Assembly: GCA_012839475.1 (NCBI GenBank)
Contig: DUNG01000005.1
Coordinates: forward strand, 186,001-250,000
Reading direction: 5' to 3'
Length of the DNA: 64,000 nucleotides
Source: Petrimonas sp.
GTDB taxonomy: Bacteria > Bacteroidota > Bacteroidia > Bacteroidales > Dysgonomonadaceae
Position 1 is the stretch's first letter, and each line of letters starts with the position of its first letter. This document shows positions 10,102-32,341 of this stretch, in pieces. A program made the translations under genes and the position numbers. The notes beneath the pieces are model-generated. The model searched no databases and was not told the origin of the DNA. It worked only from the letters and a program-made list of their open reading frames with translations.

Positions 10102-10692
10102 ATGATGACAAAAAACGTGGAGTTGATGAGGATGGCTAAAGAGTCTCTTAAAGGAAAGTGGGGACTAGCCGCGGTAACATTTCTAGTGTATATCTTACTT
10201 TCGATGGCCTCAAGCATCGTTCCGGTTGTAGGGCCTTTGCTTGTTGGAGGCCCTTTGGCTTTGGGACTTGCCCTGTTTATTCTATCTATTTCTCGAGGGC
10301 AGGAGGCTGATATAGCACAGCTTTTTAAGGGATTCGAGCGTTTTGTAGTGGCATTCGTCGCTATGTTGTTGATCACGCTTTTCGTCTCGCTGGCTTGCTT
10401 ACTCTTAATCGTTCCAGGCATTATATTGGGCATTGCCTACTCGATGACCTTTTTTATACTGCTCGATAACCCTGACTTAACCGCTGTAGAAGCGATGAAG
10501 AAGAGCAGGGAGCTGATGTATGGATTCAAGTGGAAGTTTTTCTGCCTTAGCTTGCGGTTTATAGGTTGGTTTTTACTGTGCGTGATAACGTTTGGTATCG
10601 CGTCACTATGGATAACTCCATATTTGTACGTGAGTTACGCCAAATTTTATGACGATCTGCTGGCCAACAAAAATGTTGCCCAAGCAGTATAG
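10102..10692 (+). CDS. DUF975 family integral membrane protein
   Basis: A protein of about 196 residues with four to six hydrophobic segments (AAVTFLVYILLSMASSIVPV, FVAMLLITLFVSLACLLLIV, FIGWFLLCVITFGIASLWIT) and conserved stretches typical of DUF975: AKESLKGKWGLA at the N-terminus, PGIILGIAYSMTFFILLDNP and EAMKKSRELMYGFKWKFF in the middle and WITPYLYVSYAKFYDDL near the end. It lies in the inner membrane; the function of the family is unknown. The reading frame is open from 10060, but the promoter just there argues for the start at 10102 (or the next ATG at 10105). Confidence 0.82.
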   Translation: MMTKNVELMRMAKESLKGKWGLAAVTFLVYILLSMASSIVPVVGPLLVGGPLALGLALFILSISRGQEADIAQLFKGFERFVVAFVAMLLITLFVSLACLLLIVPGIILGIAYSMTFFILLDNPDLTAVEAMKKSRELMYGFKWKFFCLSLRFIGWFLLCVITFGIASLWITPYLYVSYAKFYDDLLANKNVAQAV

Positions 10693-10715
10693 GAGGCCTG
10701 GTATATTGTCAATGA

Positions 10716-10747
10716 GCCAAGTTTGAAGTAGCTACTTCAAACTTGGC
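10716..10747. terminator. Perfect 32-bp palindrome between convergent genes
   Basis: The 16-base arm GCCAAGTTTGAAGTAG is followed directly by its exact reverse complement. It lies 23 bases after the DUF975 stop and contains the last codons and the stop of the GH26 gene from the other strand. It probably works as a hairpin protecting or ending both transcripts; there is no strong T-run on either side, so factor-independent termination is only a guess. Confidence 0.6.
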
Positions 10748-11829
10748 ATTTGCTCTAATGTAATTACGTTAGGATGGTTCATAACAATTTTCCAGTATGT
10801 CGCGCCATTTATTTTATCATCGCGTGTAAACCCGCCATACCAGGGCATGAACCACAACCAGGTATCACCCTTTTCAAACATTGAATTTGGGTTTGGTATT
10901 CCTCCGCATTCAGAAAGGGCGATCATTTTCTTCTCTTCAACGATAGCTTTAACCTTGTTGAACTCTGCCAATTGGGAACCGTGTATATCAGTTTCCGGGT
11001 ATAGGTCTCTTCCAAGCAAATCCACATATTCGTCACCGGGATACCAATCTTTATCATTCCCTTGCGAAGTCCAAACCCAAATAAGGTTGTTCAGTTTGTG
11101 GTAGTTTACCATTCTGTCAAACATGATTTTCCACAGTGCCTTGCATGGCTCCGCTCCTTTTGCCCCCCACCAAAACCAGCCGGTACCCCCGTCATAACTG
11201 TTCGTGTTCCCGGCAGCTTCGTGTAACGGTCGCCATAGAACAGGTATGTTTTTATCCTGCAAAAGTTTCAAATAGCCCGATATGATATCTATATCCTTTA
11301 TCATTAGTTGATATTCGGGTGAGTTTTCATCACTTATTTTGCTCACATCGAAATTTGTCTCTTCCGTGTAAAATGCAAATTTAGTGGGGTTGTTTGAACG
11401 CATATCATTGGGAACACACCAATGCCACATGATTGAAACTATCCCGTTGTTATCCCACCACTCCTCCACGACTTTTGTATCTTCATAATTAATCCAGCCA
11501 GCAGGGGAGTGGATATGGTGTATGAAGTCGAAGCAGTTGAGGGCTGGGTATTTTCCCGTTTGAACGTATACCCAATCGGCTTCATCGCGGTTCCAATCAA
11601 CCTTTGCCATTGTCCCCGACAGGGTCTTTTTGCCATAGATTTCGCCTAGGAAATTGATCAAGTTTTGCGCCTCTTTTGAAGGGTTTGGCGTAACTAGGGC
11701 AATGTCTGATTGTGGGGTTATATCCTCATGTTCTACTCCATTATGTTTCGTTTGACCCTCTTTTTGTGGTTCCTGCGTATGGCAGGCCAGCAAAAGAAAG
11801 CTACAAAACATAAGCAATACTTTTTTCAT
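10732..11829 (-). CDS. GH26 endo-beta-1,4-mannanase, lipoprotein
   Basis: A 365-residue glycoside hydrolase family 26 enzyme. It has a lipoprotein signal with the lipobox LLAC (Cys16), so it is probably anchored at the outer membrane. The TIM-barrel signatures are VLWRPLHEAAGN, with Glu204 as acid/base after His203, and ALSECGG with Glu307 as nucleophile; GTGWFWWGAKG and LIWVWTSQG are also GH26-like. Members cut internal beta-1,4-mannosyl bonds in mannan, glucomannan or galactomannan. It is the last gene of the glycan locus, 40 bases after the glycan-binding protein. Its final codons lie in the 32-bp palindrome. Activity on mannan is inferred from the family; a few members act on beta-glucan or xylan. 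Confidence 0.92.
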   Translation of the reverse strand: MKKVLLMFCSFLLLACHTQEPQKEGQTKHNGVEHEDITPQSDIALVTPNPSKEAQNLINFLGEIYGKKTLSGTMAKVDWNRDEADWVYVQTGKYPALNCFDFIHHIHSPAGWINYEDTKVVEEWWDNNGIVSIMWHWCVPNDMRSNNPTKFAFYTEETNFDVSKISDENSPEYQLMIKDIDIISGYLKLLQDKNIPVLWRPLHEAAGNTNSYDGGTGWFWWGAKGAEPCKALWKIMFDRMVNYHKLNNLIWVWTSQGNDKDWYPGDEYVDLLGRDLYPETDIHGSQLAEFNKVKAIVEEKKMIALSECGGIPNPNSMFEKGDTWLWFMPWYGGFTRDDKINGATYWKIVMNHPNVITLEQMPSLK

Positions 11830-11869
11830 CTCTTGTTACATCAAAAAAATCGATTTCATGTTTTCTCAT

Positions 11870-12994
11870 CTACATGGGGTCGACACGCAGGTTGTCGAAA
11901 CAAACACCTGCAGGCACGGTCCCGAACAGTCCATTAGTGCCAGATTCAAAACTTAAGAATCCCGAAAGATTCCAATGAGTGAAAGGCACCCTTATGGTCA
12001 TCCATTCTCCATCAGTGGTTTTTGGCAACAAGTTATCACCGTACCAGTAGTTCCACTGGTCGCCAAATATAAACTGCATCCCTTTGGCGGCCGTGCCATC
12101 AACACCTGGTGGAATTAGCACGTCAAATTTCACCATGTAGTTTTCTACATCATCTACACTCCATGGCCATGTCGCATCGATATTGGCTTGATGGTTGCAA
12201 TTGATAATCCAGTTATTGTTAAGATCTCCGGTAACCCTGAGGAATATGTTCCCGGTTTCAGGGTCTGTAGCAATCTCGGTATTGCCTCCCCAGCCATTAT
12301 CCCAATAGCCGTTATGTCCACCATGCTCTTCATAATCAAGTAAGATTATGGTGTTTGGTGTGATGGGATCCACTTTCCCCTCTTCGATTGGTTCGTCTGT
12401 TACTTCAATTGAAAAAGGGGAGGTGGTAATTATATCACCCGATAGCGCAACTATTTGAAGGGTACCCTCACCATCTATTGTCCCTGATGGAACAACAACT
12501 ATGATTTCGGTGTCTGATTTACGCTTAAAATGCATGGCATCTATAAATACGTTGTCAGGAAAAATTACCTGTTGAATCTCAATTAAATTTTCACCTTTAA
12601 TCGTGAGCTCTTCTCCCGTTTTCACCTCCTTAGGAAATATCGTGGAGAATTTTGGGGTCACGGCTGTGATTTCATTGGGAGAGCTGTATTCGCTTCCATT
12701 GGCTTTGATGGTCACAACACCAGACCTCATCCCTGCAGGCGTAACCAGGGAGAGCTGGTTGAAGCCGACCCTTTCAAAATCTTTGACGGAAATGTTCTCG
12801 GGTAGCACGATCTCGGTAACTTCATTGAAGTTTTTTCCTATGATAAAGATTGTTTGCCCTGTGACAACTTTCGTTGGATATACCATGGTGATTGAGGTTT
12901 CCAAAGCATCTTCATTATGGTCTGAAGTGGATTGACATTGAACAAAAGTGCCAAGGAAAATCAAAAAAACAGATAGTAATTTAATATTCTTCAT
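11870..12994 (-). CDS. Surface glycan-binding lipoprotein with two IPT/TIG domains
   Basis: A 374-residue protein exported by an N-terminal signal that ends in a plausible lipobox (FVQC, Cys about 20). Two IPT/TIG immunoglobulin-like domains follow: about residues 33-115 (YPTKVVTGQTIFIIGKNF) and 115-200 (FPKEVKTGEELTIKGENL). The C-terminal 170 residues (ILLDYEEHGGHNGYWDNGWG onward) are rich in Trp, Tyr and Asn and would be the sugar-binding module, as in SGBP/SusE-position proteins of Bacteroidetes loci. It has no hydrolase motif. It is 12 bases downstream of a susD gene and upstream of the GH26 gene; the role in holding mannan at the cell surface is inferred from this position. Confidence 0.82.
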   Translation of the reverse strand: MKNIKLLSVFLIFLGTFVQCQSTSDHNEDALETSITMVYPTKVVTGQTIFIIGKNFNEVTEIVLPENISVKDFERVGFNQLSLVTPAGMRSGVVTIKANGSEYSSPNEITAVTPKFSTIFPKEVKTGEELTIKGENLIEIQQVIFPDNVFIDAMHFKRKSDTEIIVVVPSGTIDGEGTLQIVALSGDIITTSPFSIEVTDEPIEEGKVDPITPNTIILLDYEEHGGHNGYWDNGWGGNTEIATDPETGNIFLRVTGDLNNNWIINCNHQANIDATWPWSVDDVENYMVKFDVLIPPGVDGTAAKGMQFIFGDQWNYWYGDNLLPKTTDGEWMTIRVPFTHWNLSGFLSFESGTNGLFGTVPAGVCFDNLRVDPM

Positions 12995-13006
12995 ACCGTT
13001 ATAATT

Positions 13007-14728
13007 TTACCAACCCGGATTTTGTTCGAGTTTTTTATTTTTTTGAATCTCTGTGAATGGTATAGGGAACAGGTAATATTTATTGTTCCAGCCCCTTACT
13101 AACTCTCCCCTGTTGAGGATAACTTCGTTTGACGATTTTGTCAAGTTTGCCGTTGCTACTGAAGCAAAAAACCGGTCTCCTTTTTTCCAGCGCCTTACAT
13201 CCCAGAAGCGATGATCCTCAAACGCTAACTCGATCATTCGTTCGCGCATGTATCTTTCCAGGAAGTTGGGGTCATCTCCTTGAAAGCTTGGCATTTTCAC
13301 GTCAGAACGCGATCGCACCACGTTAATGGCTTCATTTGCTGACATATCGAAATCTCCCTTCGAGTCTGCACTGCCGGTAACATGGTAGATGGCTTCAGCG
13401 TAATTGAGGTAAAACTCTCCCAGCCGATAGATGATGTAGTTGTGTCGTTTTGGAGAAGGGTTGTTGGTGGAGATATTCGCACTTGGGTCACATATTTTTC
13501 TCAGGTAATAACCTGTGGTGGTAGCTCCATAAATAGGGGAAGCATTTGCACCACCTTCAAATGTTTCAATCTCTTTCTCCGTGTAGGATGGCCAAACGTC
13601 ACCATTTTTAACAACCGTCATCGCGAAACGAGGATCCAAATCCTTATATGGGTTAGATGCTGACAAGTTAATGCTCTTTCCCGGCCACACTTCTCCAAAA
13701 GTTTTGCCTTGATTTTCCCCTGTCTTATACTCATAGGAGTCTACTAAGCTTTGGGTTGGGCAGTTACCCGATTCTCCATTTTCTACACCTATTGGAAAAT
13801 TGAAGTTCTCTACCGAATTCATTCTCCATCCTTCAGGCATACCGGTGCCTCGTACCCAGATAACCTCTTTGTTGGCATAGTTTTTTTCGCCTGACAACTC
13901 GGCATATTTACCCATTTCGACGCCTGAGGTGGGAGCAAAGTCAATTACATCTTTGTTTGCTTTTGCCGCGGCTAACCACAAAGAGGGGTTATTTTCAGTG
14001 TTGAAAAGAGGGCTGGCTCGGTAAAGCATAGCCCTAGCCTTAAGGGCCAAAACGGTAATCCTGTTTACCCTGTTTATATCTTGATTTGGTTCTTTTTCGT
14101 AGGTTATTGGCAGTTTGTCCGCGATCGCGTCACACTCATCTATAACAAACTTGAATACCTCGGCCGCGGCAGTTCTCGTCAGTGTATTCGCCTCTTCATT
14201 CGTGAGAACTTTAGTCACCAGGGGTACATTGCCATAGGTCCTGACAAGTTCAAAATATAAATACGCCCTTAAAAACCTCACTTCATATTCAAACAACTCA
14301 AACTGTTTTTTCAGATTCTCATAAGGTCTTACAGAAACATTGTACCGGTATTGCTCCAAAGAGAGATAGATGTTATCCAACTCTTCCAGAAAATTATTTG
14401 CTTGAGCAATACCGGCGTAGTTGTTGACCCAAATAAAATCAAAAGGATTCATCGGACTCCATCCGCCGTTATAGAACTTGTGAATATCAGAAATGGAAAT
14501 GGCATAGTCCGATTCGTCAGTTGCGGATGCTTTCATTGCGCCATTGAACTCGCCGAGGTCGTATCTCACGTGCGCGTATATATTTGTAACCAATCCTGAA
14601 ACCGCGGAAGGCATACTGTAAACCCACTCTTTGTCGTTGGTCTGCACCTCAGAGTAATTGAGGTCTACGCATCCTGTCATTAACAATAATGTAATGGTGG
14701 ATAGTGATATGATATGTTTTATTTTCAT
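13007..14728 (-). CDS. RagB/SusD family nutrient-binding lipoprotein (second copy)
   Basis: A 573-residue SusD-like protein. The N-terminus carries a lipobox (LLLMTGCVDLNYSE, Cys about 20). TPR-like helices with EYEVRFLRAYLYFELVRTYGNVPLV (quoted in parts: RFLRAYLYFELVRTYGNVPL) and the C-terminal motifs LGEFYLNYAEAIY, ERMIELAFEDHRFWDVRRWK and FPIPFTEIQKNKKLEQNPGW mark the family. It caps the partner SusC porin and binds the oligosaccharide. It lies 19 bases after the second susC, with which it should form one complex. Confidence 0.95.
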   Translation of the reverse strand: MKIKHIISLSTITLLLMTGCVDLNYSEVQTNDKEWVYSMPSAVSGLVTNIYAHVRYDLGEFNGAMKASATDESDYAISISDIHKFYNGGWSPMNPFDFIWVNNYAGIAQANNFLEELDNIYLSLEQYRYNVSVRPYENLKKQFELFEYEVRFLRAYLYFELVRTYGNVPLVTKVLTNEEANTLTRTAAAEVFKFVIDECDAIADKLPITYEKEPNQDINRVNRITVLALKARAMLYRASPLFNTENNPSLWLAAAKANKDVIDFAPTSGVEMGKYAELSGEKNYANKEVIWVRGTGMPEGWRMNSVENFNFPIGVENGESGNCPTQSLVDSYEYKTGENQGKTFGEVWPGKSINLSASNPYKDLDPRFAMTVVKNGDVWPSYTEKEIETFEGGANASPIYGATTTGYYLRKICDPSANISTNNPSPKRHNYIIYRLGEFYLNYAEAIYHVTGSADSKGDFDMSANEAINVVRSRSDVKMPSFQGDDPNFLERYMRERMIELAFEDHRFWDVRRWKKGDRFFASVATANLTKSSNEVILNRGELVRGWNNKYYLFPIPFTEIQKNKKLEQNPGW

Positions 14729-14747
14729 AGCGTGTGATCTTTTTACT

Positions 14748-17561
14748 TTAAAAAATAACCGATGCGCCCACGCTGATACCTATCAACGCGGGATAGCCCC
14801 CCCAAGTGTTTTCCGGATCGATGTTTGCCGGTAAATCGTGTAGCGATAGAAGATTTTCACCCTTCGCGTAAATTTTTAACCCTTTCATCTTATCCAAACC
14901 AAATAGGCCTGTTTGAAATTTGTAATAGATTTCACAGTTGCGCAATTTTAAAAACGAAGCGTTGGCATACCATGCAGAGCTGGAGCGATAATTGTTGGGA
15001 CTTGCCAGGGTTGTCAACCGGGGATAAAGTGCTTCGCTATTGTCTTGCCCGGGACGCCAGCAATGCTCGAAGTAATGGGTAGAGAGGTTTGAATTATTGA
15101 CCATGGGATTGAAAACCCCCTGTGTATTCAGGTAGTGGGTGTAGTTTTCAACACCTTGGAACAATATGTTGAAACCAAGGCCCTTATATTCAAGCCCCAC
15201 GTTGAACGAATAATTAATTTCGGGAGTCCCCGTGTATCCTATTGCAACTACGTCATTCTCGTTGATTAGCCCATCGTTGTTTTGGTCTTTATACTTGATA
15301 TCACCCGGTCGTACCCGGTCAAATTCCTGCAAGGGGCTTGACTTGATATCTGCTTCGCTTTCAAAGAAACCTATGGCTTCAAGTCCAAATGGCTGCCCCA
15401 CGGGGTGACCAATGCGGGACAAGTACGCGTAGGCCAGGGGGGCTTCCACCATGTCTACAATTTTGTTTGCCCCGTAACTAAACAGTGCCGTTAGGTTGAC
15501 TTTAAGGTCATTAAACGACTTGTTATAGCTTAAGCCCGCCTCAAAGCCTTTGCTGTCCACGACACCTTTATTGATATAGGATGAAGGAATCCCTACAATC
15601 GTAGAGTTGATTTCATCTGCAGATTGCAAAATGTTATTTCGTCTTTGATAGTAGCTTTCCAGTAACAGTTCAAAGCTCTCCCACAGCTTTAACTCCAGGC
15701 CAATATTGAACTTGTTCGCTTGTTCGAGGGCAAAATCACCTGTGGGGAAATAACTTAAAAAGTTCCCCCAGGTCTCTCGGTAATCTTTGCCGAGCACGAA
15801 CCACCCCCTGCTTGTTCCGTAATCTTCCAGGCTTAATCCCACGCGTGGCACGTAATCACTATATAAAACACCCGCGGAAGCTCTCAGTTTTAACAAATTT
15901 ACAGCTTCTACATCTTCTAGAAAACCCTCGTTTGATACCACCCATCCTAAAGCAAGGGTAGGCGAAAGGGCATACTTTTGAGGCCATGAGCGATTTGAAC
16001 CACTTCCAACCAAATTTAAATCAGCCACATATCTATTGTCATAATCATAATGGCCGTAAAGGGCTAAATTAACGCGGTTAAATTCATTGTGACGACCACT
16101 GAAAACGGTAGAGTTAGCAGTGTAGATAAGGGATGCGGCCACATTATGTATATCAAATTGATTTACGTAATCAATATTCGCCTGAAAATTGAAACTTCTC
16201 CATTGGCTGTTTAGCCATTTTCCAAACTGAAGGTGGCTTGCCTTATTTCCTCCTATAAACTGAATCGAATCTGTTACTTTATCGTTTTGGCCGAAGATAT
16301 ATCGCGTGTTGCCATACTCGAAAGATCTTTTCCTCTCCTCCACAATTTCCGAACGGTTGTCATAACCAAAGCGTGCTGATGCACTTAGACCTTTTAACAA
16401 CATGTCTAAGTTTTGTACGAATTTAGCATCTGCCAGAAGTCCTTTTTCGTGGGTTTTGTTGTGACCGGTAGCCCTGATACGTGCGATGATATTGTCAGCA
16501 CCGTAGGCCGTGGTTCCACCCCAAGTAGTGCCGTCAGACATCATTACCGGGTAAGCCGATGCGGGTGTGTTGTTGAAAAACTGAAAAATTCCGTTTGCAT
16601 CAATACCATGTGGGCGATTTGTTTCCACGAAATAACCCATGATGCCGGCGTGAACATTGGTTGTGGGGGTTAGCTTAAAATCTATGTTAACCCTTACGTT
16701 TCCCTTTGAATACTTCAATTGAGTGGAATAACCCTCGTTTACCTCTGTTCCACTTAGTAAGCCACTTGCATTTACCAGATTGCATGACGTGAGGTATTTC
16801 AAGTTGTCGTTCCCCCCTGATATACTCAGGTTGGCTTGAGTTTCAAAAGCAGCATCGCGAAGTGCCTCACTTTTCCAGTCTACATTGGGATAGATATTGG
16901 GATAAGTACCGTTTTTAAAAGCGTCTAACTCCTGTTTGTTGTAAGCAGGTGTAAGGCCATCTAGCGTCCTGGCTTCGTTTAAGGCCATCGCGTAGGTGTG
17001 GGCATCAATAAATTCGGTTGTTTTTGGGGCCGATTGAAACTTGCGATCGAATCTAACCTTTACTGCAAGGTCATCGCTTTTCGAACGCTTGGTTTTTACC
17101 GAGATAACTCCATTAACGCCTTTATACCCGTATAGGGCCGTTGCAGCAGCATCTTTAAAGACTGTCACAGATTCCACTTCATCAATAGGAAGGCGATCTA
17201 TCGGGCGCTCCAATCCATCCACCAATATTAAAATGTCATTTTCCGTAGATGTTTGGGTACCTCTAATATTAAAATAGCCACCGTACCATTGGTCACCGGA
17301 GAAGTTTGCACCCCTTAACGTGTTTAGTCCGAGCAATCTGCCATAAAGGGCGTCTAACAAGGTGATTGCCGATGTTTTTTGCAACTCTTCAGCCGTTATG
17401 GTATATGTGGAAGCTGTCGATATCTCTTTTTTTTGGGCTATTCCTAATCCCAAATCGACCACTGAATCTGTAGTTTGAGCAACAAGTAAAGAGGGTGTGA
17501 TTAAAAAACAACTCAAACATAGCCAGATCAATACGTTTTTATTCACTATATATTTCTCCAT
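14748..17561 (-). CDS. SusC/RagA family TonB-linked porin lacking the N-terminal CTD-like domain (second copy)
   Basis: An outer-membrane TonB-dependent transporter of 937 residues. After a signal peptide (VLIWLCLSCFLITPSLLVAQ) it goes almost at once to the plug domain (TYTITAEELQKTSAITLLDA, NIRGTQTSTENDILILVDGL, VTVFKDAAATALYGYKGVNG), so the carboxypeptidase-regulatory-like domain usual in SusC proteins is absent. A 22-strand barrel follows and the chain ends in a hydrophobic strand with terminal Phe (VGASVIF). The start at 17561 is preferred to an ATG 13 codons earlier because it fits directly before the signal peptide. With the SusD that follows, it would import large oligosaccharides using proton-motive force passed on by TonB. 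Confidence 0.93.
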   Translation of the reverse strand: MEKYIVNKNVLIWLCLSCFLITPSLLVAQTTDSVVDLGLGIAQKKEISTASTYTITAEELQKTSAITLLDALYGRLLGLNTLRGANFSGDQWYGGYFNIRGTQTSTENDILILVDGLERPIDRLPIDEVESVTVFKDAAATALYGYKGVNGVISVKTKRSKSDDLAVKVRFDRKFQSAPKTTEFIDAHTYAMALNEARTLDGLTPAYNKQELDAFKNGTYPNIYPNVDWKSEALRDAAFETQANLSISGGNDNLKYLTSCNLVNASGLLSGTEVNEGYSTQLKYSKGNVRVNIDFKLTPTTNVHAGIMGYFVETNRPHGIDANGIFQFFNNTPASAYPVMMSDGTTWGGTTAYGADNIIARIRATGHNKTHEKGLLADAKFVQNLDMLLKGLSASARFGYDNRSEIVEERKRSFEYGNTRYIFGQNDKVTDSIQFIGGNKASHLQFGKWLNSQWRSFNFQANIDYVNQFDIHNVAASLIYTANSTVFSGRHNEFNRVNLALYGHYDYDNRYVADLNLVGSGSNRSWPQKYALSPTLALGWVVSNEGFLEDVEAVNLLKLRASAGVLYSDYVPRVGLSLEDYGTSRGWFVLGKDYRETWGNFLSYFPTGDFALEQANKFNIGLELKLWESFELLLESYYQRRNNILQSADEINSTIVGIPSSYINKGVVDSKGFEAGLSYNKSFNDLKVNLTALFSYGANKIVDMVEAPLAYAYLSRIGHPVGQPFGLEAIGFFESEADIKSSPLQEFDRVRPGDIKYKDQNNDGLINENDVVAIGYTGTPEINYSFNVGLEYKGLGFNILFQGVENYTHYLNTQGVFNPMVNNSNLSTHYFEHCWRPGQDNSEALYPRLTTLASPNNYRSSSAWYANASFLKLRNCEIYYKFQTGLFGLDKMKGLKIYAKGENLLSLHDLPANIDPENTWGGYPALIGISVGASVIF

Positions 17562-17593
17562 AGGTCTATTTTCTAAAAAGTAAATGTTTATAA

Positions 17594-19483
17594 TTACCAA
17601 CCTGGATTTTGAGTCAATCCATACCCTTTATTAATTTCTGGAATCGGTAAGGCTTGCAGGTACCATTTCGTCGTGAAAAAGCCCGGTTTCCACCACGCTC
17701 TCGCACCATCGGTAAACACGTATGTTTCATATCTGAACTCAGTAGGATAGGGTTCCCCTTCTTCTAGCTTGCCTTTTCCATCCTTGCGGTATATTTTTAT
17801 CCCGTGCAGGGGTGTTGTGAACTTGTCTGCCATTTTCCTGCGGCATATGTCTAAAAAGCGATGCTCTTCAAACCCAAGTTCAACGGCTCTTTCACGCAAG
17901 ATCTCATGGATAAGGTTCTCTTTGTTACTGGTGAGGTTCAGTTCGGGATTCATCTCTTCGATTTTACCGAGTCCCACGCGAGCCCTGACCTTATTAACCT
18001 CCTCACATGCCTTTTGGAGATTTCCCGTTTCAGCCAACGCTTCCGCGTAAATCAGGTGCATTTCACCCATTCTTAATATTGAATACTGTACGGGATCAAC
18101 ACCTAAATTATAGAAATCCAGACACCATTTGTAGGGTCCAATGCCGTTGGCCATCATGCTACTGTAGTACCACCCCATGGCATCTTTTAGATTGCCTTCT
18201 TCCCATACCTCGATTTGATTGTAGTTCTGCCACCGGCGTCCTTTTTTCGGTGTTAACAGGGTTTCATACATCCGAGGATCTCTATTTTCAAAGATGTCAA
18301 TGTTTGTCGGATTATCGGTGTTATATACGGACATGTCTTTAAAGTTACGGCCATCGGCCATTGGAAACATCTCCATGAATTCAACCGTTGGGCAGTAGGC
18401 ACCTTGGTGCATAACATTGATGGGTTGTTGGTCACCCCACTCATCAACATATGGACGTGTATGTACTTCGATAATTTTTTCACTGTTGCCGCGTGTCCAA
18501 TAGGCCTGACGGTACACCGCCATATATCCCTCTTCCGTGTTGCTTTTTGGTTGCAGTAATTGATAAGGATTTCCATTTGAGGCATTCTGGCTGAAAAAGT
18601 CATTGCAAGCGTCAAGGCATCTATTCCACAGCTCGGGTTTATATCCTCCATACCACACGTGTAAACTATCCACGGCATCTTGAGGCTCCTCACGTGAATA
18701 GGGGCTGGCATCGTTGAACAGAGGACTGGCAGCGAAAAGTAACACTTTAGCTTTAAACCCCAGGGCGGCCCCTTTTGTCATCCTTCCCGCCCATTGGCTT
18801 TTCTCTGATTCAGGAATCGAAAATGGCAGAGAGGGGGTTGCCGCGGCCTCATCCAATAGATGAACCATGAAATCAACCGTCTCCTCAATGGTTGCCCTTG
18901 GTGCGTTATACTCTTCGGTGGGCAGATAAGCGTGATCAATGATGGGAAGTCCCCCAACATGCCTAAACAGGGTATAATAAAGGATGGATATTATGATTTT
19001 CGCCTCTGCTTTCAAACGCTCCTTTTCATCTTCGGACATATCTCCGACCCTATCCACATTCTCTATAAAATTCCAGCAATTACGTATAGGACCCCAAATT
19101 TTGGTAAACTCCATACGGCTTCTGTCCCAACCGGATGACCAGGACGCGTTGTAATTTCCCGGATACCATAACTCTTTCATGTCGCCCCATCCTAATCTTG
19201 AGTGGATGCAATCTGACAATGCATCTACGGGACAGTCGCCCATTATATAATACTCCAAGTTTGAATTGTGGGGGGTATAAAGTTTACCATATGCCTCCCA
19301 AAGATATGCACGCGCGTACTCCGCTTTAGAAAAGATGGTGTCCGCGTTAACTGTAACACCCGGGGCCTTTTCTAAGAAAGCATCTCCTATGTTAAAGTGA
19401 TCCACGCACGACGCGATAAAGGGAGCTCCAAACAATGCGAAGATGATAATTTTTACTATGTTGTTTTTTATTTTCATTTTCAT
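17594..19483 (-). CDS. RagB/SusD family nutrient-binding lipoprotein (first copy)
   Basis: A 629-residue SusD-like lipoprotein. The N-terminus KIIIFALFGAPFIASCVDHF has a good lipobox (IASC). Family signs are ARAYLWEAYGKLY near the N-terminus, RMGEMHLIYAEALAETG, HEILRERAVELGFEEHRFLD and the ending LQALPIPEINKGYGLTQNPGW (the last residues QNPGW are the typical end). It is longer than the second copy and clearly different from it, so the two pairs are not recent duplicates. It lies 22 bases after the first susC. It probably binds a different size or decoration of the same glycan; that is a guess from the arrangement. Confidence 0.94.
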   Translation of the reverse strand: MKMKIKNNIVKIIIFALFGAPFIASCVDHFNIGDAFLEKAPGVTVNADTIFSKAEYARAYLWEAYGKLYTPHNSNLEYYIMGDCPVDALSDCIHSRLGWGDMKELWYPGNYNASWSSGWDRSRMEFTKIWGPIRNCWNFIENVDRVGDMSEDEKERLKAEAKIIISILYYTLFRHVGGLPIIDHAYLPTEEYNAPRATIEETVDFMVHLLDEAAATPSLPFSIPESEKSQWAGRMTKGAALGFKAKVLLFAASPLFNDASPYSREEPQDAVDSLHVWYGGYKPELWNRCLDACNDFFSQNASNGNPYQLLQPKSNTEEGYMAVYRQAYWTRGNSEKIIEVHTRPYVDEWGDQQPINVMHQGAYCPTVEFMEMFPMADGRNFKDMSVYNTDNPTNIDIFENRDPRMYETLLTPKKGRRWQNYNQIEVWEEGNLKDAMGWYYSSMMANGIGPYKWCLDFYNLGVDPVQYSILRMGEMHLIYAEALAETGNLQKACEEVNKVRARVGLGKIEEMNPELNLTSNKENLIHEILRERAVELGFEEHRFLDICRRKMADKFTTPLHGIKIYRKDGKGKLEEGEPYPTEFRYETYVFTDGARAWWKPGFFTTKWYLQALPIPEINKGYGLTQNPGW

Positions 19484-19505
19484 GCTTTCCGATCATTAAT
19501 GGTGA

Positions 19506-22500
19506 TTAAAAGTTTATTCTGACTCCCAAGTTATATATTTTCATAATAGGGTGTCGAATTGTATTTTGCCATCCACCCCCCACGTTTTCAGGGTCGTTAC
19601 CTGCAAAAGCGGAAAAGGTTAATAGGTTGGTGCCGTTTAAAAACACCCTTATACTGCTATTTGCTGTAAGTAGTTTAAGTTTGTCAAATGTATACCCAAT
19701 CTCAAGGTTGCGCAAGCGTATATATGATGCATCCATCAGCCAAACGCTAGATAATGGGGTGTTATTGACTTCATTGGCAATTGTCAAACGCGGAAGAGTT
19801 GCTGTGGCAGCTGTCTCGGGTGTCCATGAGTTTTCGTAAACCCAGCGGACCAGCCCTTGATCGTGGAACTGACCAAATTGAGGGTTGTAAGGCCAGCTCA
19901 AGGCCCTTCCTACATTTGTTGCACCATTCCACAACATCGAGAAATCAAACTTTTTATAAGTAAAACTCGTGTTCAGCGAAAAAGTTATTTCCGGATAATC
20001 GGGAAAGCCTATGGCATGTTGATCTTCCGCGGTTATTATTCCGTCATTATTTAAATCAACATAGATCGCGTCACCATTGCTTAGATTTGCCTGTCCCAGT
20101 TGGGTGGGCATATCCACACCATACTTGTCTTTATAAGCCTGTTCGGTTTTGTCTTTCTCATAAAACGCGAAAAACTCATACCCGAAAGGTTGGTTTACCC
20201 TGTGCCCCGTTCTATACAGATAGTCGTATTCCTGGCGGATTTCGGCCATCTCTACGATCTTGTTTCTATTGAACGAGAAGTTTGGAGCAATACTGTAGGT
20301 GAAGTTACCGACTCTGTCTGTCCAGTTGAGTACCACTTCAAACCCCTTGTTGGTTACTTTTCCATAATTGATTGGTGAGGGGACCAGTGCCGAGGGTGCG
20401 GTTATGAAGGCATCATTATTGATAAGGATATTGCTTCTATTCTCTTTAAATATATCGATATTAATATTTAAACGATCGCCAAAGGTTCTCAGATCTACGC
20501 CAAGGTTTTGCTTTACAGAAGTTTCCCATGTTACTTCCGGGTTTCCGGATGTATCTTCCGTTGCTCCTTTTACAAATACCGGATTGTTCGTTCCAAAGTT
20601 ATAACCATGAAAACCGCCTCCATAGCCTGCATAGAATCCGTTATGAATGGTGTATTCAGGAGGAAGGTATAAGAATCTCCTTCCACCCATGTAATCGTTA
20701 CCTACTATTCCGTATGAATACCTGAATTTAAGGTAAGAAAAAGCTTGCTGGTTCTTCATCCATTCCTCTTCCGTCATTATCCATCCCACAGAGATAGCGG
20801 GGAACAATCCATACCGCTTGTCGGGTGCGAAGTTTTCGGAACCGTTATAACCAACGTTGAAGTCAACCAGGTAGCGTGACAGGTAGTTATAGGTTGCCCT
20901 TCCTACTACTCCTACATATCCGCGAGGAATTTCCGGGTAAGGCCAGGGATAGTAGTATTTGGATTGATTGTAGAGCAAAAGTGCAGTTACATCATGTGCG
21001 CCAAATTTTCGGGCGTAATTTAAACTTGTCTCGGCATACCAATCTCTCCACACATTGGTCTCTTCCGAAAACGCTGGCTTCCATTTGTCACCGGAGGTTT
21101 CAAGAACAACCGAACCATCATCAAGCATGTATGGCTTATAAGTTGGATATGCCTCATACTGTTCCCATTTCTTAGTGTGGGCGTAAGTGCTGTTATATGA
21201 TCCCTTGACTTGGAACTTTAACCCTGAAGTGATCATATTCAAATCCGCGGAATAGATTAAATCCAGGTTCAGTACATTGTTCGCGGTACTTTGGTGACCT
21301 GAGCCGTAAAAACGCATGGGATCATTATCCATATCGGTACCAACGTATGCTGTATTGGATTTAATTCTTTTCCCATCTATAATACCGGCTCCCGACATGG
21401 GCGATGCAAAAAGGATATCTTCAAAAATACTCTGCTCACCCCTGGGTAATGATGATTTATCTTCCAGGCGTCCACCAATGTTTACTGAAAGGGAGCTTAT
21501 TTTGTCGATGTTAAAATCCAGGTTAGCTCTATAGTTGTATCTGTCGTAAGCAAATTTTTCATTCGGGTCTGTGGCAAATGTCCTGAATAAACCTCCTTGT
21601 TGCAATGCACCCAGGGAGATGAAGTACTTTGCTTTCTCGTTACCGCCTGATATGTTTACATTTTGCTGTGTTTGTGGAGCCACGGGTCTCATAATATAAC
21701 TTACCCAGTCCATATCGGGGTAAAGTATTGGTTGGTCCCCATCTTTGAAATGTTGAACTGCCTCGGGAGAAAATCTTAGCTCTCCCTCTAGTAAACCATC
21801 GCCACGTTGGGTTTGATTATACGCCATGGCGTAGTCATAGCTATTCACGTAGTCTAAAAACATGGTGGGGCGCTGTATCCCAAAAGAGGTGGTTGCGGAA
21901 ATTTGTGTTTTCCCGGCTTCTCCACGTCTGGTGGTAATAAGTATCACGCCGTTTGCTCCTTGTACTCCAAAAACAGCCGTTGCTGACGCATCTTTCAAAA
22001 TGGTAATATCAGCAATTTCACTTGGATCGATTTGGGTAAAGCTTCGTTCCACACCATCCACCATTACCAATGGGGTAGAGCCACCTGTGGATAGAGAAGC
22101 TACTCCGCGTACGAGGATCATCGGGTCGTCTGCACCGGGCAATCCCGAGTATTGCACGGTTGAAACTCCCGGGAGTTTACCCGTAAGGGCATTGCCTAAT
22201 GAGGCTGTAGGGGATTTTAGAATTTCATTACCGCTTACATTTGCCAAAGATCCTGTAACCGTAACTTTCTTCTGACTTCCATAGGCTACAACAACAACCT
22301 CATCCAGCAACTCATCGTCTTGTTCCATAACAACCTGTATCATTGTTCGACCTTCTACATTTACCTCCAGGGTCTTGTAGCCAATCATAGAAAAGACCAA
22401 TACTGAATTACGGGAACTTACAGTCATTTCGAAATCGCCATCAACGTCCGTTATAGTACCGTTGCTGGTTCCCTTTTCTACGATGTTCACACCAATCATG

Positions 22501-22607
22501 GTAGATCCATCACTGCCATCACTAACAGTTCCGGAAATACCATGTCGCTGCGCCACCAGTTGAAAGCTCATTAATAGAGCCATACACAACACTAAAGCCT
22601 TATTCAT
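19506..22607 (-). CDS. SusC/RagA family TonB-linked porin (first copy)
   Basis: A full-length SusC of 1033 residues. After the signal peptide (MNKALVLCMALLMSFQLVAQ) comes the carboxypeptidase-regulatory-like domain (GISGTVSDGSDGSTMIGVNI, GTSNGTITDVDGDFEMTVSS), the conserved LDEVVVVAYGSQKKVTVTGS stretch before the plug, and the plug with ILVRGVASLSTGGSTPLVMVDG (quoted in part: VRGVASLSTGGSTPLVMVDG) and ITILKDASATAVFGVQGANG. The barrel ends in IYNLGVRINF. The frame is open 23 codons further upstream, but the ATG at 22607 gives the proper signal peptide. The gene is the second of the locus, after the GH5 gene. Confidence 0.96.
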   Translation of the reverse strand: MNKALVLCMALLMSFQLVAQRHGISGTVSDGSDGSTMIGVNIVEKGTSNGTITDVDGDFEMTVSSRNSVLVFSMIGYKTLEVNVEGRTMIQVVMEQDDELLDEVVVVAYGSQKKVTVTGSLANVSGNEILKSPTASLGNALTGKLPGVSTVQYSGLPGADDPMILVRGVASLSTGGSTPLVMVDGVERSFTQIDPSEIADITILKDASATAVFGVQGANGVILITTRRGEAGKTQISATTSFGIQRPTMFLDYVNSYDYAMAYNQTQRGDGLLEGELRFSPEAVQHFKDGDQPILYPDMDWVSYIMRPVAPQTQQNVNISGGNEKAKYFISLGALQQGGLFRTFATDPNEKFAYDRYNYRANLDFNIDKISSLSVNIGGRLEDKSSLPRGEQSIFEDILFASPMSGAGIIDGKRIKSNTAYVGTDMDNDPMRFYGSGHQSTANNVLNLDLIYSADLNMITSGLKFQVKGSYNSTYAHTKKWEQYEAYPTYKPYMLDDGSVVLETSGDKWKPAFSEETNVWRDWYAETSLNYARKFGAHDVTALLLYNQSKYYYPWPYPEIPRGYVGVVGRATYNYLSRYLVDFNVGYNGSENFAPDKRYGLFPAISVGWIMTEEEWMKNQQAFSYLKFRYSYGIVGNDYMGGRRFLYLPPEYTIHNGFYAGYGGGFHGYNFGTNNPVFVKGATEDTSGNPEVTWETSVKQNLGVDLRTFGDRLNINIDIFKENRSNILINNDAFITAPSALVPSPINYGKVTNKGFEVVLNWTDRVGNFTYSIAPNFSFNRNKIVEMAEIRQEYDYLYRTGHRVNQPFGYEFFAFYEKDKTEQAYKDKYGVDMPTQLGQANLSNGDAIYVDLNNDGIITAEDQHAIGFPDYPEITFSLNTSFTYKKFDFSMLWNGATNVGRALSWPYNPQFGQFHDQGLVRWVYENSWTPETAATATLPRLTIANEVNNTPLSSVWLMDASYIRLRNLEIGYTFDKLKLLTANSSIRVFLNGTNLLTFSAFAGNDPENVGGGWQNTIRHPIMKIYNLGVRINF

Positions 22608-22734
22608 ATAAAACAAATTTAATCTTTTTATATACTGCCATTCATACATCAGCGTGATTGACGCGTAATAAACCATCCATCTCGGTGATGATCCTTGTCT
22701 CTCTAAAAAACTTGTTACACGGAAACGGAGTCAG

Positions 22735-23727
22735 TTAATGGTTGTCACTTATCTCTTTTTTGACAATTTGTCCCCACTCCTTCAACTCTTCATCTTCCCA
22801 TTTACCGGTCGAAGATGCAGAAGGTAATAGCATCGAGCAGGTTTCATCCTTGTCTGCTATAGACCATGCAATCCAACTAATGTGATTTTCTGCCATCCAA
22901 TTCAACCATGTTTGCCACTCGTTGTAATTTATGGCTCCATCACCTGTCGCCTCCATACCTGCACATTCTGACACAAATATCGGTATCCCCTTTGAGATGG
23001 CGTAATTGGCCCTGTCGCGCAGAAACTGGTGATGTGTGGCAGCGTAAAAATGAAGTGTATACATAATGTTTTCAAATCCCACCAATGGGTTGTCTGCAAC
23101 TATATGTACATCCTGGCTCCAGTGGGGTGAGCCGACAAGTATAACATTCGATTTGTCGAACGCTCTAATTGTCTTAATGACCTCTTCCGAGTATGCTTTC
23201 ACGGTTTCCCAAGAGTCATCTACCGGTTCGTTAAATATCTCGTAGATTATGTTGGGATAATCTTTATATTTTCGCGCCATCGCGCTGAAAAACTGAACAG
23301 CTTCTTTGGTCCTAATCGTGTGACTGTGCCAGTCTATTATCACGTAGATGCCATTTTCTATGGCTGCATCAATCACACTTGTCGCACATTCGGTTGAAAA
23401 TGCCGGTTCGCTGATAAATCCTCTTTCAGGATCTACACCTATTGATGCCCGTACAACATCACACTGCCAGTCGGTTGCAAATGTTTCAACCGCACCAGCA
23501 TTATAGAAGCGGGGCCACCAGTTGTGCCACCCGAAGCTGACACCTCTCAAGACTACTTTTTCTCCTTTTTCATTTACAAGATAGACCCCGGAAACTGAAA
23601 GCTGGCCATGCTTATCCACAACTGTTTTTTCAGCATCTCTTTCATTAACCCCCACTTTATTGTCCATCCCTTTTGTACAACAACAAAATAGAAGAAGAAA
23701 GGTTAAGAAGGAAACTAATTTTTTCAT
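22735..23727 (-). CDS. GH5 family endoglucanase/mannanase, lipoprotein
   Basis: A 330-residue enzyme with a lipoprotein signal (FLTFLLLFCCCTKG). The barrel begins with HGQLSVSGVYLVNEKGEKVV and VLRGVSFGWHNWW, like GH5 subfamily 2 cellulases; the acid/base Glu167 sits in EIFNEP and the nucleophile Glu254 in IFVSECAG. IIDWHSH and LHFYAATHHQFLRDR agree with GH5_2. This family cuts beta-1,4-glucan bonds, and some members glucomannan. As first gene of the locus and together with GH26 it suggests glucomannan as target, but a cellulose or beta-glucan specificity cannot be excluded. Upstream lies the 79-bp repeat region. Confidence 0.92.
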   Translation of the reverse strand: MKKLVSFLTFLLLFCCCTKGMDNKVGVNERDAEKTVVDKHGQLSVSGVYLVNEKGEKVVLRGVSFGWHNWWPRFYNAGAVETFATDWQCDVVRASIGVDPERGFISEPAFSTECATSVIDAAIENGIYVIIDWHSHTIRTKEAVQFFSAMARKYKDYPNIIYEIFNEPVDDSWETVKAYSEEVIKTIRAFDKSNVILVGSPHWSQDVHIVADNPLVGFENIMYTLHFYAATHHQFLRDRANYAISKGIPIFVSECAGMEATGDGAINYNEWQTWLNWMAENHISWIAWSIADKDETCSMLLPSASSTGKWEDEELKEWGQIVKKEISDNH

Positions 23728-23784
23728 GCGATTATTTTATCTTTATATTGCAGTATATGGAACCTTTGGTGTTTAAAATAATCA

Positions 23785-24179
23785 TTCACTGAAGTTAGAC
23801 TATTTCTCGCCACGGCATATTCCAAGTGAACTTGTTCTCTGCTCGTTTGGCTTATCGAAATAGTTCACTAAAGTTAGACTATTTCTCGCCACGGCATAGT
23901 ACAAAAAGATTTGTCCTCTGCTCGTTTGGCTTAACGAAATAGTTCACTAAAGTTAGACTATTTCTCGCCACGGCATAGTACAAAAAGATTTGTCCTCTGC
24001 TCGTTTGGCTTAACGAAATAGTTCACTGAAGTTAGACTATTGCTCGCCACGGCATAGTCCAAGTGAACTTGTTCTCTGCTCGTTTGGCTTATCGAAATAG
24101 TTCACTGAAGTTAGACTATTTCTCGCCACGGCATAGTCCAAGTGAACTTGTTCTCTGCTCGTTTGGCTTATCGAAATAG
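23785..24179. repeat. Tandem array of five 79-bp units
   Basis: Units start at 23785, 23864, 23943, 24022 and 24101, each exactly 79 bases, and a sixth begins at 24180 but ends after three bases. Units 2 and 3 form one subtype, units 1, 4 and 5 the other. Differences gather in the middle: CAAGTGAACTTG in one subtype, ACAAAAAGATTTGT in the other. Because 79 is not a multiple of three, the array cannot code for a repeated peptide. Each unit contains GACTAT and ATAGTC (or a near match) as inverted repeats around GCCACGGC, and ACTATTTC near the start can also pair with GAAATAGT at the unit's end. Function unknown. Confidence 0.95.
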
Positions 24180-24584
24180 TTCCCAAGGGTGTTTTATGAT
24201 TGTTTTAAAACATGTCAAGTTCGTACGATTATTGTATTTTAGTGATAGTTAAGTGTTTGGCACCTATGGTGTTTAATAATTGCTTGAAAATTGGTCTATA
24301 TCATTTGTTTAATGGCAAAAATATTAAAATTGTTAAAAGCGGACTACACTGTTAATTTTTTGCAAGGTACACAATAAAAAGTTGAATGTGTAGCCATCCC
24401 TTGTTAAGAAAATGAAAAATAAAAAAATGTTGGATTAAAATCATTTAAACAACGCGTTAAGTTTATGTTTTGTTGCTGTTCATCGGGGCCAGAACATGCA
24501 GAGGTGTCGTCATCGATAAAGAAACGTTGTAGGGTTTTGAATCAAGACAGTTGAATAGCGAAGGTTGAACGGGAAGAAAAATTC

Positions 24585-24614
24585 TTTGATTTTCGAAACT
24601 ATTCCCTATCTTTG
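24585..24614 (+). promoter_or_regulatory. Bacteroidetes-type promoter for the SHOCT-ftsE genes
   Basis: TTTG at 24585-24588, a gap of 18 bases and TATCTTTG at 24607-24614 match the -33/-7 consensus almost perfectly. Transcription should start near 24621, about 16 bases before the ATG at 24637. Confidence 0.75.
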
Positions 24615-24636
24615 TTTCGTAGTACATAAACGAATT

Positions 24637-24750
24637 ATGAAGTACCAAGACTTAAAGATTCTTGACGAGCTAAGGGAGAAGGGGAGTATTTCGGAGGAGG
24701 AGTACCAGCGTGAGAAGAGGCACCCCTTCACCATTCAATTCATTAAGTGA
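24637..24750 (+). CDS. SHOCT-domain microprotein (37 residues)
   Basis: A very short protein, MKYQDLKILDELREKGSISE and a further 17 residues. The core ILDELREKGSISEEEYQREK is a good match to the SHOCT motif (short C-terminal domain: a leucine-rich helix, Gly-x-Ile turn, then EEE-x-(Y/F)). In most proteins SHOCT is an appendage at the end of a larger chain; here it is nearly the whole protein. The start is supported by the promoter at 24585-24614. Its TGA overlaps the ATG of ftsE by one base, so translation of the two is likely coupled. The function is not known; a regulatory or oligomerising role next to FtsE is a guess. Confidence 0.75.
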   Translation: MKYQDLKILDELREKGSISEEEYQREKRHPFTIQFIK

Positions 24751-25421
24751 TGATTCAGGAACAGATCATTAATTATTCTAACGTGCAGCTCAACCGGGAG
24801 GAGAATATCATATTGCGTAACGTGAACCTCACCGTTGACCGGGGTGATTTCCTCTACGTGATTGGCAAGGTGGGTTCCGGGAAGAGCACGTTGATGAAGA
24901 GCATGTACGCCGAGTTACCTATCGAGTCGGGGAGCGCCCGGGTATTCGATTACGAGCTGGCCGGTATCAAGCGGCGGCTTGTCCCGTTCCTGCGCCGGAA
25001 GATCGGTATAGTGTTCCAGGATTTTCAGCTGCTTATCGATCGATCGGTGGAGAAGAATCTGGAGTTCGTGTTGCGCGCCACCGGATGGAAGAACCGCCGC
25101 GAGATCAAGGACCGGATCAACGAGGTGCTGGTGCAGGTAGGTATGCAGAACAAGACCTACAAGATGCCGCACGAGCTGTCTGGTGGGGAGCAGCAGCGAG
25201 TGGTAATTGCCCGTGCCCTGTTGAATTCGCCTGCCCTCGTGTTGGCCGATGAGCCAACGGGAAATCTCGACCCAGAGACGGGGAGTCAAATCGTTTCCCT
25301 CTTGCAGGAGATCTCTAACCGGGGTACCGCCGTTATCATGTCTACCCATAACTACTCCATCGTGCAAGCCTTTCCCGGGAAGATCATCCAGTGCGAGAAT
25401 ATGTCGCTTGTACCCATGTGA
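24750..25421 (+). CDS. ftsE: Cell-division ATP-binding protein FtsE (ABC-type ATPase)
   Basis: A 223-residue ABC ATPase: Walker [11 protein letters not shown]-loop IVFQDFQLL, signature LSGGEQQRV, Walker [17 protein letters not shown] and the switch His in STHNYS. Length and the [16 protein letters not shown] region match FtsE, which works with the membrane protein FtsX to control cell-wall hydrolases at the septum. FtsX is not next to it here. The ATG at 24750 overlaps the stop of the microprotein; a GTG three bases earlier is less likely. LolD-type ATPases are related and cannot be wholly ruled out. Confidence 0.85.
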
Positions 25422-31465: not shown

Positions 31466-32341
31466 ATGAAAGGAATTGTTTTAGCCGGGGGGTCCGGTAC
31501 CCGTTTGTATCCCATTACCAAGGGGGTAAGCAAGCAGCTGTTGCCCGTTTACGACAAGCCCATGGTCTATTACCCCATCTCGACGCTCATGTTGGCCGGG
31601 ATCCGCGAGATACTCATCATCACCACCCCTGAAGATCGTCATGCTTTCCAGCGGCTTTTGGGTGATGGCAGTGATTACGGCGTGTGTTTCGAGTACGCGG
31701 TGCAACCCAGTCCCGATGGATTAGCACAGGCCTTTATCATCGGCGAGGAGTTTATCGGGGAAGATACCGTCTGCCTGGTATTGGGTGACAACATATTCTA
31801 CGGACAAGGCTTCTCTACTATGCTAAAGCAGGCCGTGCAACAGGCCGAACAGCAAAATCAAGCCACCGTGTTCGGCTACTACGTGAACAACCCCCAGCGG
31901 TACGGCGTGGCCGAGTTTGACGATAAGGGGAACGTGCTGGGTATCGAGGAGAAGCCCAAGGAGCCGAAATCAAACTACGCCATAGTGGGTCTCTATTTTT
32001 ACCCGAATAGCGTGGTGGAGGTGGCCAAAGGGGTCAAACCCTCGGCCCGGGGCGAGCTGGAGATCACCACGGTAAACCAAACCTTTCTGAGTCGACGGCA
32101 ACTTAAGGTGAGCCTTCTGGGACGCGGTTTCGCCTGGCTCGACACCGGCACCCACGGTTCGCTGGCCGAGGCATCCACCTTCGTGGAGGTAATAGAGAAG
32201 CGGCAAGGGCTCAAGATCGCCTGTCTCGAGGAGATCGCATGGCACAATTGCTGGATCTCCAGCGACAAGCTGGCGGAGGTTGCGGAGCCGATGAAGAACA
32301 ACGACTACGGGCAGTACCTGTTGAAGTTAATTAACCTGTAA
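31466..32341 (+). CDS. rfbA: Glucose-1-phosphate thymidylyltransferase
   Basis: Joins glucose-1-phosphate and dTTP to dTDP-glucose, the first step towards dTDP-L-rhamnose and related sugars. The 291-residue protein begins [18 protein letters not shown] with the nucleotide-binding signature GGSGTRLx[25 protein letters not shown] and [16 protein letters not shown] are typical. The reading frame is open for 71 codons upstream, but the ATG at 31466 is the right start by comparison. rfbB follows after two bases. Confidence 0.97.

Follow-up and report, generated by a model that had tools for sequence, protein, structure and literature searches.

A 79-bp tandem array in a Petrimonas genome probably consists of copies of a REP-like mobile hairpin

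What are five 79-bp units, joined head to tail without spacers, doing between two divergent genes beside a glycan-utilisation locus? The array lies in a 64,000-nt stretch of a Petrimonas sp. genome (the window, by which we mean this whole stretch), and the preliminary description had proposed that it could be a regulator-binding array, a transcribed structured RNA or an expansion hot spot. We consider it likely, with a probability of roughly 0.8, that the array comprises five head-to-tail copies of a 79-bp REP-like, non-autonomous mobile hairpin, and that it grew by a combination of end-to-end insertion and local duplication.

The array spans positions 23785-24182, where Tandem Repeats Finder reports a period of 79, 5.0 copies, 93% matches and 0% indels (Table 1). 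Five units of exactly this period had been described from the letters alone, and this holds, as does their contiguity: CRISPR-type unique spacers are absent from the array. The proposed division into two subtypes is also real. Units 1, 4 and 5 (subtype A) agree at 77-78 of 79 positions, units 2 and 3 (subtype B) have the same sequence, and identity between the groups is 69-70/79, with the subtypes following one another in the order A-B-B-A-A. The flanking genes, a GH5 cellulase gene (22735-23727, minus strand) and an ATP-binding-cassette gene (24747-25421, plus strand), are indeed divergent; the gap between them measures 1.0 kb, and the 0.9 kb given previously is obtained only if a short frame at 24637-24750 is counted as a gene. 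This frame (37 codons, by eye) lies directly ahead of the ATP-binding-cassette gene, and about 80 bp of it recur at 77-85% identity in four genomes (G002, G010, G022 and G013). Positions 23600-24750 have no match in Rfam at E up to 1. A terminator or promoter role for the array was dropped after a scan of 23650-24760, which contains no terminator-like sites and four promoter-like sites, versus 2.4 +/- 1.5 in shuffled sequence.

Table 1. Positions of the array units and associated features in the window; R1 is the covariance model of the unit.
Feature	Position	Strand	Score or basis
Unit 1, subtype A: 15-nt linker TTCACTGAAGTTAGA followed by 64-nt hairpin CTATTTC...GAAATAG	23785..23863	+	R1, 104.1 bits
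Unit 2, subtype B	23864..23942	+	R1, 97.2 bits
Unit 3, subtype B, same sequence as unit 2	23943..24021	+	R1, 97.2 bits
Unit 4, subtype A	24022..24100	+	R1, 101.5 bits
Unit 5, subtype A	24101..24179	+	R1, 104.8 bits
Right-hand border trinucleotide TTC, after unit 5	24180..24182	+	Sequence; borders of 60 arrays
F2 palindromic repeat, part one	23721..23786	-	F2 positions 41-107
F2 palindromic repeat, part two, across the array; aligned bases include the last few of unit 5	24175..24208	-	F2 positions 14-47
Empty insertion site; the orthologous locus L085 holds two units	32325..32339	.	Locus comparison

The 79-bp unit is a dispersed non-coding element and is not particular to the window locus. BLAST with the array located 35 places in the 3.39-Mb genome, and a unit profile, run on the window and on 30 stretches fetched around the other BLAST places, resolved 35 arrays that together hold 53 units; 22 of them are solitary units, 11 are pairs, one has four units and one, the window array, has five. 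Orientation is evenly divided (18 arrays plus, 17 minus). The covariance model R1 makes 78 matches in this genome at E up to 0.001, weak ones counted. Across the genus, R1 matched 34 of 39 genomes with 0 to 102 matches each (E up to 0.001, at most 121 candidates scored per genome and weak matches included), and across the family 50 of 101 genomes in 7 of 15 genera (E up to 1e-5). Two larger searches, which applied stricter filters and scored few candidates per genome, returned 2 of 295 genomes in a sample of the order (this genome and G210) and this genome only among 395 in a sample of the phylum. G210, which belongs to another family of the order, has five diverged units (L108, L110, L112, L114 and L116) that may represent an old branch or a transferred one. 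The core was matched exactly in 41 stretches, of which 39 have Bacteroidales or Bacteroidetes in their titles, one Proteiniphilum and one Clostridiales. None of 72,556 plasmid records or 50,697 phage records matched the unit; a 19-base pattern matched four viral contigs, and three of these matches, each falling within a long ORF among phage-like genes, were read as chance and not as a sign of phage carriers. In one single-contig genome (G013, 3.9 Mb), none of the 31 unit places falls between 1.99 and 3.84 Mb.

In each unit a linker of 15 nt (TTCAYTAAARTTAGA) precedes a bulged hairpin of 64 nt. The outer stem of the hairpin has 7 bp and is separated by an uneven inner loop from a middle stem of 8 bp, which carries bulges of two bases and one base, both on the same side; a 5-bp tip completes the fold. 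Since single units exceed shuffled sequences in folding only by a modest margin (z between -0.98 and -3.21 with RNA parameters, and between -1.73 and -4.09 with DNA parameters), the case for structure rests on covariation. Among the 47 copies taken from this genome, pairing is kept in 97.2% of cells, versus 23-42% in slid controls, and 11 of 20 pairs show changes on both sides, versus 4.1 +/- 1.2 in shuffles (0 of 500 as high). With 131 distinct copies from several genomes, both-side changes extend to 15 of the 20 pairs (209 cells), in an alignment that was fitted to the covariance model and so leans towards it. The innermost covarying pair changes from T-A to C-G in 36 of the 131 copies, and closes a two-base loop in most copies. 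A loop of two bases fits DNA better than RNA, and we counted this towards a reading of the hairpin as folded DNA. The earlier suggestion of a transcribed structured RNA thus stands in part: structure is supported, as pairing is kept across copies, while transcription as RNA is not, given that wobble pairs show no clear favour for either strand (26 v 39, duplicate loci included) and that arrays beside co-directional genes occur about equally in the two orientations (28 v 27).

The unit is apparently mobile, its movement being read from comparisons of orthologous loci that are filled in one genome and empty in another. The intergenic site between rplU and rpmA is filled in this genome (G000) and in G050 and empty in 27 of the 28 other fetched loci, while the remaining one could not be placed; filled and empty gaps differ by 72-73 bp and not by 79, and the flanks are diverged. 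At this site the last codon and stop of rplU appear to come from the unit inserted at the end of that gene (L026:1572-1580). At a second site, filled in this genome and empty in its ortholog L083, the difference is exactly 79. The converse case occurs in the window, where the site that is empty in Table 1 differs from L085 by 159 (2 x 79 + 1) and not by 158. Unit number varies as well: orthologous arrays hold two units and one (L012 and L052, with 77 bp for the one unit; L017 and L083, with 79 bp) or two, three and five (L016, L050 and L082, respectively). Of the three roles first proposed for the array, that of an expansion hot spot is therefore borne out. The departures from whole multiples of 79 (72-73, 77 and 159 bp) count against the mobile reading.

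Two routes of growth are suggested by the relations between neighbouring units, in counts (as for gene context and wobble pairs) that are not fully independent since some loci are duplicates (e.g. L071/L098, L064/L099, L040/L103, L041/L102 and L076/L174). Spacing between neighbours is exactly 79 in 55 of 67 cases across all fetched loci, and hairpins of neighbouring units differ by a median of 2 positions, versus 11 for random pairs. Replication slippage or unequal exchange would multiply such neighbours, as may have happened in the order A-B-B-A-A. Nevertheless, 16 of 58 neighbour pairs, including two in the window, differ by at least 8 positions yet hold the register exactly or nearly so, although a few of these dissimilar pairs involve partial or diverged units (L077, L040).

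The borders of the arrays point to how dissimilar units might come to share a register. In 60 deduplicated arrays the trinucleotide TTC is found on the left of 37, on the right of 44 and on both sides of 29. Left and right trinucleotides are equal in 30 of 60, versus 27.4 expected from independent draws, and because they are uncorrelated in this sense TTC has the look of a fixed preference rather than of a copied random target. In deduplicated loci, the likeness between right flank and linker is greater at offset 0 than elsewhere. In the analysis that gave the unit spacings the right flank was miscut for a few units overhanging locus ends, and those listed score below the limit used for both the offset comparison and the border counts. 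We propose that the hairpin, folded and probably single-stranded DNA, would be recognised by an enzyme supplied in trans, and that the element would be joined next to a (G)TTC-like target. As an inserted copy would then itself be bordered by TTC, a later copy could enter exactly at the end of the resident unit, which would yield the 79-bp register and, in some arrays, two subtypes.

Repeats of this general kind have well-studied counterparts. REP and REPIN sequences, as characterised in passages of two accounts, are short intergenic palindromes present in many copies, both singly and in ordered tandem clusters (PMC3116915, PMC3733652). The 79-bp unit resembles them in being a high-copy intergenic palindrome with a covarying hairpin and tandem clusters. 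It departs from those that are associated with RAYTs in having no GTAG or GTGG foot, its borders being mostly TTC, and its 64-nt hairpin within a 79-bp unit is unlike the REP palindrome, for which a length of 20-40 bp is given in a passage of PMC3733652. The same source has a passage on CGTC-tagged REPs, dispersed palindromic repeats that apparently are without a dedicated transposase (PMC3733652); the 79-bp unit is without CGTC at either end, is much longer, and turned up in one bacterial family and in a single genome outside it. Searches of the open-licence literature found no report of the unit.

REP-like repeats are usually explained by the action of RAYT transposases, and the search for such an enzyme bears directly on who moves the unit. 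The RAYT model NF047646 (REP_Tyr_transpos) reached its cut-off in none of the 39 genus genomes; in a control on 14 well-known genomes the same model matched 8, above cut-off in only one. The broader model Y1_Tnp (PF01797) matched in 6 of the 39 genomes (G000, G006, G010, G012, G018 and G054) and made no match in G007, G013, G015, G020, G022 and G050, each of which has between 31 and 102 unit matches. G013 and G015 are single-contig genomes, and neither RAYT model matched in them. Where Y1 does match, in G010 (58 unit matches) the match is weak and partial, and the sole match in this genome (L089:2771-3043, or G000:C9:9770-10042) is a broken remnant with one TGA inside; moreover, the unit is absent from all nine fetched loci with Y1 matches. 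With no match in six high-copy genomes and only a broken one here, RAYT or Y1 proteins were set aside as the mobiliser, and, the tests of GTAG foot, length and RAYT having all failed, we did not file the unit as a REP.

A more specific form of the mobile-hairpin reading would name TnpA-REP subclass 2.6 as the mobiliser. Its repeats, mostly from Bacteroidetes, are reported in part of the relevant source to have "atypical secondary structures", to occur in further copies elsewhere in the genome and to flank the transposase gene (PMC6006769). The phylum and the general description agree; no flanked transposase gene was found here. With RAYT over cut-off in 0 of 39 genomes and Y1 matchless in the single-contig G013 and G015, we regard this attribution as doubtful, bearing in mind that the RAYT models may miss subclass 2.6 or very divergent RAYTs.

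Orientation along the chromosome was also considered. In G015 the orientations form 26 runs versus 28.4 expected, at 55 of 70 places (15 were left out as neighbours within one array or weak matches), and this want of a strand pattern argues against strong lagging-strand targeting. A replichore bias of orientation was accordingly rejected, orientations in G015 being no less mixed than random. The origin could not be located by GC skew, which was too noisy over the 20 samples of six kb taken in each of G015 and G013.

One alternative is an ordinary MITE, derived by internal deletion from a cut-and-paste insertion sequence and carrying terminal inverted repeats and a target duplication. The unit is short, non-coding, dispersed and palindromic, and TTC is often present on both sides, all of which such an origin would accommodate. 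However, the stem is not terminal: it is flush with one end of the unit, with TTC directly after it, while at the other end TTC is followed by 12 conserved unpaired bases before the stem begins. Combined with the border trinucleotides, which agree hardly more often than independent draws would and hence look like a fixed preference, this makes an ordinary MITE improbable; nor was a parent element noticed in the fetched loci. The order does contain elements that share some features with ours. BrickBuilt and PgRS MITEs of Porphyromonas gingivalis, on the part of the account at hand, are intergenic and contain inner tandem repeats that vary in number between strains, these repeats being of 23 or 41 nt within an element that has IS5-family-like terminal inverted repeats (PMC4596501). 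Our unit is likewise from Bacteroidales, intergenic and variable in number, but here the repeat unit is the element itself.

An integron-like or tyrosine-recombinase site, in which an attC-like folded hairpin is moved as a tiny cassette, is decidedly unlikely. The core sites of integron attC are RYYYAAC and GTTRRRY. A single bulged hairpin with an unpaired inner spacer and units that start with TT and end with G are in keeping with such a site, and the linker often contains GTTAGAC, which fits GTTRRRY. The GTT varies, however, with linker rows reading AATTAGAC, ACATTAGAC and AACAGAC; the inverse core is not seen at the other end by eye; and the elements are scattered in both orientations and do not form one cassette array.

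Returning to the mobile hairpin as the preferred reading, we tentatively raise the possibility of a folded-DNA mobile family that works without Y1 or RAYT proteins. Here a candidate enzyme of Dysgonomonadaceae, perhaps a hairpin-reading recombinase, would insert the 79-nt hairpin at TTC, so that arrays in exact register would build themselves. Were the mobility of the unit confirmed, it would mean either that RAYTs missed by current models exist or that folded DNA hairpins are moved by an enzyme of another kind. Self-targeting would also explain simply how tandem arrays of exact period arise, and such arrays are readily taken for regulatory ones. The unit also offers a well-defined covarying hairpin family across one bacterial family, including two single-contig genomes that have no match to a RAYT model.

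It remains to consider the glycan locus. A segment of 14 kb in the window (10676-24744) comprises genes for GH26, GH5 and a glycan-binding protein together with two SusC/SusD-like pairs. In the G050 ortholog both this segment and the array are absent, and the position corresponding to 10675 joins 24745 upstream of the ATP-binding-cassette gene. A link between the unit and glycan loci had been suggested, and it is not upheld in this genome. In a Pfam search of 61 neighbour genes (60 of the 64 nearest ORFs within the fetched stretches, plus rpmA) no family matched more than two, the 25 families listed out of 124 include neither SusC nor SusD, and the glycan enzymes GH5, GH106 and alpha-amylase occur once each. 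Within this scope, no regular placement of the unit beside susC/susD was seen. Clustering of 433 ORFs from fetched loci that carry units revealed no gene common to many unit neighbourhoods, the largest clusters comprising four loci and consisting of common enzyme families or orthologs, with duplicate loci among them. For 89 arrays with ORFs on both sides (mechanical ORFs, some of them at duplicate loci), the context is co-directional in 28 and 27 for the two orientations, convergent in 23 and divergent in 11. That the array is a DNA-binding or RNA leader element regulating this glycan locus, or glycan loci generally, is thus very improbable: its first hairpin does start 73 bp from the GH5 gene start in a divergent gap, pairing is conserved across copies and three glycan enzymes stand among the 61 neighbours, but no neighbour family recurs more than twice and SusC/SusD are missing from those listed, the two orientations are balanced at co-directional genes and divergent gaps are the rarest context, Rfam gives no match, and G050 has 102 unit matches despite lacking the glycan segment at the orthologous position.

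The position of the array is better accounted for by F2, another dispersed palindrome, about 105 bp long, within which the window array is nested. F2 contains two sites used by the 79-bp unit and is touched by 11 of the 35 arrays in this genome. Because the array sits in so frequent a target, we take its placement ahead of the glycan locus to be incidental. F2 has features of its own: at L061:2518-2626 and at several loci of this genome one of its ends extends into the start codon of the gene that follows (ATCGTATGAAA), and one F2 half has more copies in G007, G010, G015 and G022.
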